From: Promethearchaeota archaeon | GTDB taxonomy: Archaea; Asgardarchaeota; Lokiarchaeia; Sigyniarchaeales; SOKP01 | Direction: 5' to 3' | Length of the DNA: 50,601 nucleotides | Assembly (NCBI GenBank): GCA_030606485.1 | Contig: JAUWGH010000012.1 | Coordinates: 1-50,601 of the forward strand | In this document: piece by piece, positions 34,339 through 37,687 of the stretch | Numbering within the stretch: the stretch's first letter is position 1 | Layout: each line of letters starts with the position of its first letter | Made by a program: the position numbers and the translations under genes | Notes under the pieces: generated by a model | Databases searched by the model: none | What the model was told of the DNA's origin: nothing | What the model saw: only the letters and a program-made list of their open reading frames with translations

Positions 34339-34872
34339 ATGAGCAATAAGCCTTTATATGTATTTAAAATCATTGTCGTCGGCGAAGGCGGTGTTGGGAA
34401 AACCACAATGATCCGCCGGTTATGTTACCAAAAATATATGCCCCAAAAGCTCACAATAGGCGCGGATTTGGCTTCATATGACTTGGAGATCGATGATAAT
34501 CCTTTTAAATTACAGCTCTGGGATTTTGCGGGAGAAAAGAGGTTTAGATTCTTCCTTCCTTCTTATTGTAAAGGTGCAGTAGGCGCTCTCTTAGTATTTG
34601 ACCTCGCGAGATATTCAACCTTTAAAAAATTGAATGAGTGGTATGAGATAGTAACTCAAAATTCAAAACATCTTTCTATTATTTTAGTTGGTTCTAAATG
34701 CGATTTAGTGAAAGAAAAAGGTGCAATTGATTTTGAAGAAATACTAGAATTTCAAAAATCACATAATATTGAAGGCTATATCGAAACTTCGTCTAAAACA
34801 GGGGAAAACAATAAAGATGTCTTTGAACTACTAGTAAGAAAAATTAAAGATAAGATGGATAAAAATAAATAA
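34339..34872 (+). CDS. Rab/Ras-like small GTPase
   Basis: All G motifs are visible: G1 GEGGVGKT (15-22), G2 Thr39 in TIGAD, G3 WDFAGEKRF with Asp62 and Gly65, G4 SKCD (119-122) and G5 ETSSKTG (149-155). FLPSYCKGAVGALLVFD is Rab-like. The residue equal to Ras Gln61 is Glu66, which suggests altered intrinsic hydrolysis. The C-terminus ends KIKDKMDKNK with no Cys, so classical prenylation is impossible; membrane contact would need a partner. The 5' third of the gene (GTCGTCGGCGAAGGCGGTG) has more GC than its neighbours. Roadblock and longin proteins in the same window are candidate regulators. Confidence 0.93.
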   Translation: MSNKPLYVFKIIVVGEGGVGKTTMIRRLCYQKYMPQKLTIGADLASYDLEIDDNPFKLQLWDFAGEKRFRFFLPSYCKGAVGALLVFDLARYSTFKKLNEWYEIVTQNSKHLSIILVGSKCDLVKEKGAIDFEEILEFQKSHNIEGYIETSSKTGENNKDVFELLVRKIKDKMDKNK

Positions 34873-36489: not shown

Positions 36490-37236
36490 ATGGAAGAAAA
36501 AACAAAAAGAAAAATACCCAAAGAACACCATGAGTATTTAGAAGAAAAAATAATCCCTAATATTGATTACGATCCGCGATATGGAATGGATCCTGGGGTA
36601 CAGCTGGAAAATTATAATGAATACATACAAATTCTCAAAAAAATTTGTAGAAATGATGGAATTCTTATAGAAAAGGAGAAAAATAAACACCTTGAAAATC
36701 ATTTACTTAATGAAGAGGAACAGTTAGTAAAAGACATAGATATAAATAACCAAACTATATTGAATGCAATAGAAATATCAAGTGAAAAATTAAGGAAATT
36801 AAAACATTTTATTCAGTATCAGAAGGACAAAATTAAAGAGCTTGAAATACAGAAAAATCAAGAAATTCAAGATATAAGAGAAGAAAATATAAATTTAATG
36901 CAAGAGAAAGAGATTTTGGAAAGTAAAGTCTTTAAAGATCTCGTCTCTAAAGTGCTTACTAATATTCCATACTTACCTGCGTTACCTTCAAATCCAAATT
37001 TAGCTCAAATTCCTAGAGTTCATAGTGATATCGAAATAAAACGGATAAGAAGACCGCCAACGGTAAAAACACACCTCAATCCTAAAGAAAATGCTTTTCG
37101 TGCAGTAGTTGTGGAATTAAAAGGAGCACTTAAGAAAGGAAATCCTTTGAAGCCAATTGATCCGCAAGAATTAAAAGAGATAAAAGAAGAGCGTGAAAAA
37201 AGAATGAAAGAAATTAAAGATCGAAAACTTTTTTAA
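36490..37236 (+). CDS. Coiled-coil protein with Pro-containing linker and C-terminal WH2-like motif
   Basis: The protein has 248 residues from the ATG. It opens MEEKTKRKIPKEHHEY and has a conserved-looking patch NIDYDPRYGMDPGVQLENYN. A long heptad-like coiled coil covers about 65-150 (EKLRKLKHFIQYQKDKIKEL). A Pro-containing linker follows (IPYLPALPSNPNLAQIP), then a basic segment IKRIRRPPTVKTHLNP. At 209-223, ELKGALKKGNPLKPI matches the WH2 actin-binding pattern (hydrophobic-rich short helix, then G-x-x-L-K-x-hydrophobic). A charged helix KEIKEEREKRMKEIKDRK ends the chain. Asgard archaea have actin and profilin, so an actin role is possible, but this is a by-eye match with no family hit known to me. 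The start could also be TTG at 36475 or 36445. Confidence 0.6.
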   Translation: MEEKTKRKIPKEHHEYLEEKIIPNIDYDPRYGMDPGVQLENYNEYIQILKKICRNDGILIEKEKNKHLENHLLNEEEQLVKDIDINNQTILNAIEISSEKLRKLKHFIQYQKDKIKELEIQKNQEIQDIREENINLMQEKEILESKVFKDLVSKVLTNIPYLPALPSNPNLAQIPRVHSDIEIKRIRRPPTVKTHLNPKENAFRAVVVELKGALKKGNPLKPIDPQELKEIKEEREKRMKEIKDRKLF

Positions 37237-37363: not shown

Positions 37364-37687
37364 ATGGTAATAGTTATATGGCGTCAAATTCAACAAATTC
37401 AACCAGGTAAATGGGATGAGTTAGAAGAGATTAACAAAAAATTCAATGAAATCGAAAAGAGGCTTGGATTTCCTGACAACAAGAAGCGATATCGTCACAT
37501 AGTTGGGACCCAATATATAAATACCCTTATTATAGAATTCCAATGGGAGAGTATGGCTCAAATGGAAAAAACGATAACAAAAGCTGTCTTGGATCCTGAG
37601 TATCAGAAACTTCAAGCTAAAGCAGAACCGATTATCGAAAGTAGCCAATGGGAATTATATATTCCATGGCCATTGGTTCCTCCATAA
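37364..37687 (+). CDS. Dimeric alpha/beta-barrel (NIPSNAP/ABM-like) protein
   Basis: The 107-residue protein has a ferredoxin-like beta-alpha-beta pattern: strand MVIVIWRQIQQI, helix KWDELEEINKKFNEIEKRLG, strand HIVGTQYINTLIIEFQW, helix MAQMEKTITKAVLDPEYQKL, then a strand ending WELYIPWP. This is the usual form of small dimeric alpha/beta-barrel proteins (ABM, NIPSNAP). Members act as monooxygenases, isomerases or have unknown roles. No catalytic residue can be named. A T13 run follows its stop. Confidence 0.55.
   Translation: MVIVIWRQIQQIQPGKWDELEEINKKFNEIEKRLGFPDNKKRYRHIVGTQYINTLIIEFQWESMAQMEKTITKAVLDPEYQKLQAKAEPIIESSQWELYIPWPLVPP

Follow-up and report, generated by a model that had tools for sequence, protein, structure and literature searches.

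Asgard archaea are known to possess actin, profilin and gelsolin. In the literature searched, which largely excluded subscription papers, we met no description of an Asgard monomer binder that is free and of the WH2 or thymosin type. The only published Asgard WH2-like element found in the literature searched was the LVDV/LRRV motif of the two-domain gelsolins, of which crystal structures on actin are available (PMC9433394). In Crenarchaea, arcadin-2, encoded in the crenactin (arcade) gene cluster, binds the hydrophobic groove of crenactin through a C-terminal helix that follows an unstructured linker, and depolymerises crenactin; its peptide is a helix only (PMC5173319). The block of sequence described below closes a coiled-coil protein and resembles, in its residue pattern, the actin-grabbing WH2 motif of eukaryotes. 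Profile searches indicate that it is one copy of an order-wide block and not a lone look-alike, and it is thus of broader interest than a single protein.

The window, i.e. the whole stretch of 50,601 nucleotides that was analysed, contains an open reading frame at 36490-37236 (+) that translates into a 248-aa protein, P0001. The features of this region are as follows.

34339..34872, + strand: Ras-like small GTPase upstream of P0001 (PF00071, E 1.2e-37)
36490..37236, + strand: CDS of the 248-aa coiled-coil protein P0001; genus-restricted, dN/dS 0.26-0.32 among close orthologues
36559..36693, + strand: conserved N-terminal patch, residues 24-68 (NIDYDPRYGMDPG...EN..EY...IC.NDG), 51% identity to the deepest orthologue
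36613..36963, + strand: long helix, predicted coiled coil, residues 42-158 (AF2, pLDDT <=96)
36964..37080, + strand: disordered Pro-containing linker, residues 159-197, with the basic stretch KRIRRPP (AF2 pLDDT mostly <50)
37081..37134, + strand: amphipathic helix 1, residues 198-215, with ELKGALK at its end (AF2)
37114..37158, + strand: WH2-like core ELKGALKKGNPLKPI, residues 209-223 (translation, family profile, orthologue conservation, profile comparison)
37162..37230, + strand: helix 2, residues 225-247 (PQELKEIKEEREKRMKEIKDRKL region; AF2), the best-conserved part in the wider family

The sequence-only reading had proposed a WH2-like motif at residues 209-223 (37114-37158), and the translation places ELKGALKKGNPLKPI exactly there (E209-I223). 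The AF2 model, built from four sequences (P0001 and three homologues; mean pLDDT 68, pTM 0.27), is essentially one long helix. It reproduced the proposed order of coiled coil, Pro-containing linker (PYLPALPSNPN), basic stretch and motif, and added a second helix after the motif. The break between helices 1 and 2 falls over GNPLKPIDP (residues 216-224), and the amphipathic helix lies directly N-terminal to the LKPI strand, as WH2 requires.

That linear order had also suggested a nucleation-promoting factor of the WASP/WAVE type, in which a coiled coil and a basic region would be followed by W, C and A segments that activate a complex of the Arp2/3 kind. Here the likeness broke down: no central or acidic-Trp segment follows the motif, and the highly charged helix 2 that comes instead, at whose end the protein closes with KDRKLF, has no Trp. 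P0001 also lacks a long polyproline and is confined to one genus. We consider this explanation very improbable. We must also note that the bare text carried limited weight. The strict WH2-like pattern occurred once against 0.025 expected from shuffled window ORFs (0.185 expected for the loose pattern), which is unusual, not decisive. We take conservation, unlike the bare text, to be decisive for the reality of the motif.

The full P0001 protein was found solely in the window's own genus, in five of five genomes, one copy being interrupted by a contig end; full-length copies in three other genomes were 92, 87 and 36% identical. Loss of L-K-x-hydrophobic among orthologues had been named beforehand as the refuting result, and we found LKPI in all four P0001 sequences that cover the motif, including the 36%-identical one. 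In the deepest pair, identity reached 51% over residues 24-68, 50% over residues 203-240 and 58% over the core 208-226, vs ~30% in the coil and linker. P0001 would thus look like two functional ends with a coiled coil and a tether between them. The N-terminal patch had no match in Pfam, and the two weak matches found for it beyond the genus were TFB-like and were rejected. The gene order with the upstream Ras-like GTPase is kept at L010. Just downstream of P0001, the window (37364-37687, +) encodes a 107-aa NIPSNAP-like protein whose Pfam match is sub-threshold.

The C-terminus of P0001 (~204-248) is a copy of a ~45-residue module consisting of helix 1, GxxLxK(V/I)D and a charged helix 2. The family was first met as short ORFs matching only this part of P0001 in a whole-protein search. 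The P0001 segment matched the order-wide family profiles with E ~1e-16 to 1e-24 (2e-16 with A2, 1e-23 with A1), both of which contain window-type sequences; independently of them, P0001 alone sufficed to retrieve standalone relatives (E between 4e-4 and 9e-4). On these matches it is near certain that the P0001 tail belongs to the family. Of 227 Asgard genomes, 72 had the module according to a first profile, which was made from the short ORFs together with the P0001 segment. The 36-sequence profile A2 detected it in 71 of 79 genomes in the order, with one weak match outside. As judged by these profiles, the module is nearly universal in this Asgard order and absent elsewhere in the phylum bar that match. 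In genus g6 no copy was detected with A2, and the one g6 Pelota locus examined lacked such an upstream ORF. Viral contigs held no relatives of the module. We found no description of the family in the literature, again with subscription papers largely outside the search, and the module is apparently undescribed.

The commonest form is a free protein of ~50 aa, essentially one per genome, e.g. MAPVDKELQEEIKKGVTLQKVDEAELKKREEEKKKRMEELEKVKEALGEK, in which L, I, G, L and R are near-invariant; the window's own genome encodes its standalone copy at G000:C6:125006-125155. Across the wider family, helix 2 is the most conserved part. In one family of the order (f2), ~10 copies occur in tandem in proteins of 489-495 aa. 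These ~490-aa repeat proteins (L042:2197-3678 (-), L043:1510-2994, L044:240-1706 and L045:3-1472) consist of module copies almost throughout, with match strength varying strongly among copies, and one of them lies in a single-contig genome.

Other proteins carry a Ras-like GTPase or LRR domain, then the module, then a ribbon-helix-helix (RHH) domain, or RHH and the module together; related modules of the LEKP type thus adjoin RHH DNA-binding domains, LRRs and GTPases. GTPase forms were observed at L047, L048, L050 and L112, LRR forms at L105, L110 and L111, and L115 lies in the window's own genome; in this odd domain combination the joining module is degenerate and often reads L-E-K-P. Outside the order, L114:722-1522 encodes an alpha-helical repeat-like protein with ...AELKASILSGVSLKKVDEE..., a near-perfect WH2 text. 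The degenerate core between GTPase/LRR and RHH domains, the coiled-coil-like charge of helix 2 and the long helical arrays formed by ~10 copies are what one would expect of a generic amphipathic helix-turn-helix element for oligomerisation or linkage, with no common partner, in which case the P0001 tail would merely end a coiled-coil scaffold. We consider this unlikely, as a single-copy, order-wide 50-aa form with near-invariant residues suggests one specific partner.

The genomic setting of the standalone copies points to translation rather than actin. The succession GNAT acetyltransferase, standalone module, Pelota, all on one strand and with gaps of ~3-250 nt between reading frames, was observed at 53 standalone loci, which come from three families of the order; most standalone genes sit in this setting. 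The gene is also kept in f4 and in two f2 genera, where it has left the neighbourhood of Pelota; in these f2 genera it is arranged tail to tail with the gene for ZPR1, which is an EF1A chaperone. The module could therefore be a small helical protein linked to translation, with a role alongside Pelota in ribosome rescue or in protein acetylation; its WH2 likeness would then be convergent, and P0001, the profilin fusion and the other fusions would reuse a generic protein-binding helix pair. The conservation of helix 2, and not of the WH2 part, as the strongest in the family also favours such a role. Nevertheless, gene order can persist without shared function, and the GNAT/Pelota order is the strongest evidence on this side. 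The retention of the gene away from Pelota indicates that it is not tied to Pelota, no match to TMA7 or another ribosome-associated family emerged, and the near-invariant LxxxI..G..L and the profilin fusion are left unaccounted for. TMA7, a ribosome-associated protein with a similar charged helix, was rejected because it has no match in the window's own genome. A role in translation is possible, if somewhat doubtful. Because of this gene order we hold our confidence in actin binding at a tentative level.

Is the module a WH2 domain? The WH2 signature LxxxI..G..L[KR][KR][VT] reads L...L..G..LKPI in P0001. The main group (f1/f4) carries L in 28, I in 29, G in 29, L in 29, K in 25 and V in 22 of 29 sequences at the signature positions, and the wider family retains LxxxI..G..LxKV. 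The first basic residue of LKKV varies between members of the family, which have Q, E, D or A there, and P0001 has KP for KK. With hhalign, the family aligned to a reference of seven eukaryotic WH2 sequences over 18 columns with P 2.8e-6 and score 21.8 (P 2.4e-6 for standalone forms only, 1.1e-3 for window orthologues only); none of 1,382 column shuffles reached that score, the best giving 17.25. Against the PDB, the full-length family profile had its best natural matches in N-WASP (WH2 repeats, E 0.0011) and in Spire (E 0.008). Both are borderline and add up several weak repeats, and designed TIM barrels score as high. A core-only profile did not recover N-WASP or the WH2s from the PDB, and since a permuted control gave an equally strong spurious match, the E-values near 1e-3 are not taken as proof. 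The curated Pfam model proposed for checking the motif (PF02205, cut-off 23.1 bits) had no match in P0001 and none in the own genome at E<=10. Four of 36 family members had sub-threshold matches, the best of them at E 0.007, as did one of the ~10-repeat proteins at E 0.072, so that no curated WH2 model attained its cut-off. Weak, scattered and composition-driven Pfam matches to HIP1 clathrin-binding, DUF3006 and the like were rejected. Of the claimed WH2 likeness, the kept LKPI and the family profile that beats its shuffles stand, and recognition by Pfam does not; membership of the module in WH2 is, on these profile comparisons, not established, and WH2 does not explain the conservation of helix 2.

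On the actin side, the WH2 groove is intact in the alignment of the cell's own Lokiactin, encoded at G000:C6:228919-230031, which keeps Y143, A144, G146, R147, T148, E334 and I341 as well as S344, I345, L346, L349, T351 and M355, with D24E and Y169F as conservative changes; these are residues lining the WH2 site in WH2-actin structures. Full-length copies from other genera of the order, where checked, share 90-96% identity with this Lokiactin, and in g6 the actin is intact and 96% identical even though the module was undetected. The module is moreover tied to an actin-monomer binder by a profilin fusion found in two genomes (5zza, E 1e-10), in which it lies in the C-terminal half.

These fusions (L046:1517-2290 and L049/L119) have an additional C-terminal part of ~55 aa. 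Profilin-like proteins were observed in 63 of 65 genomes of the family, in most as multiple copies. A 138-aa protein with a helical N-terminus, the polyproline GAPPPPPGAPPPPPGRPP and the C-terminal helix SLRGAIMGELKELFSK is encoded ~3 kb from the standalone module gene (L051:9182-9598, contig C6 of the own genome) and conserved in a sister genome (L056:7740-8156); it is a candidate profilin ligand. A second polyproline protein of 166 aa, ending in LSTLRDEMLDELNRLKKIMRGD, is encoded at L101:3588-4085 (-), ~1 kb from an actin-related gene of the own genome.

Binding of actin in a WH2/beta-thymosin-like manner is the leading mechanism for the module, which we put forward tentatively on sequence grounds. 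We infer actin binding, and with it an oligomeric state and an effect on polymerisation, along the following lines. Helix 1 would dock onto monomeric Lokiactin in its barbed-end groove, the hydrophobic cleft between subdomains 1 and 3, the L-x-K-V/I strand would run up the actin face, and helix 2 would add contacts and affinity or block the monomer face. The standalone 50-aa form would hold or buffer monomers, and the ~10-repeat proteins could align several of them. In P0001, a coiled-coil oligomer would unite two or more flexibly tethered module copies and so concentrate or sequester Lokiactin monomers at whatever the N-terminal patch binds. Should the family prove to bind Lokiactin, the control of monomers by WH2/thymosin peptides would predate eukaryotes, and the 50-aa peptides would be convenient Lokiactin probes and reagents. 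Otherwise, this order-wide neighbour of Pelota, 50 aa long, would be a new piece of Lokiarchaeal translation.

How would such a system compare with those already described? Like the WH2 domains of WASP, N-WASP, WAVE, WIP and Spire, the module presents L and I on the same side of a short helix, and the f1/f4 forms and P0001 have the exact WH2 spacing, with Gly three residues after I and L-x-K-V three further. It differs in scoring below the Pfam cut-off, in the lost first basic residue of LKKV and in its long, conserved, charged second helix, and is known from sequence. With the beta-thymosins it shares the format of a free 40-55 aa protein built as helix, LKKV/T and second helix, and some f2 forms have an I-to-L spacing of eight residues (EIEAMNKEKLKKV), as in thymosin beta-4, which we take to read EIEKFDKSKLKKT; in the module the second helix follows directly, the linker of thymosin beta-4 being absent. 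The f2 profile and members gave no thymosin match among PDB chains and Pfam (homology to thymosin beta-4 and ciboulot was undetected), and thymosin homology of the f2 forms, a by-eye likeness, was rejected for want of statistical support. It is conceivable, and still rather uncertain, that Lokiarchaeales have their own WH2/beta-thymosin-type actin-monomer binders, as a 50-aa free peptide encoded by almost all genomes, ~10-copy arrays, a profilin-WH2 fusion and a coiled-coil-tethered form, with both spacings in one family and a fold predating eukaryotes; the arrays, restricted to one clade, would then be likened to Spire and Cordon-bleu. The gelsolin LVDV/LRRV motif links two gelsolin domains, whereas the module comes without gelsolin domains and mostly occurs as a free peptide. 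Arcadin-2 has no known sequence relation to P0001, and we liken the two by its published description: both place a C-terminal helix behind an unstructured linker, the tethered tail of P0001 would act much as the arcadin-2 helix does on crenactin (PMC5173319), and arcadin-2 is a plausible functional analogue.
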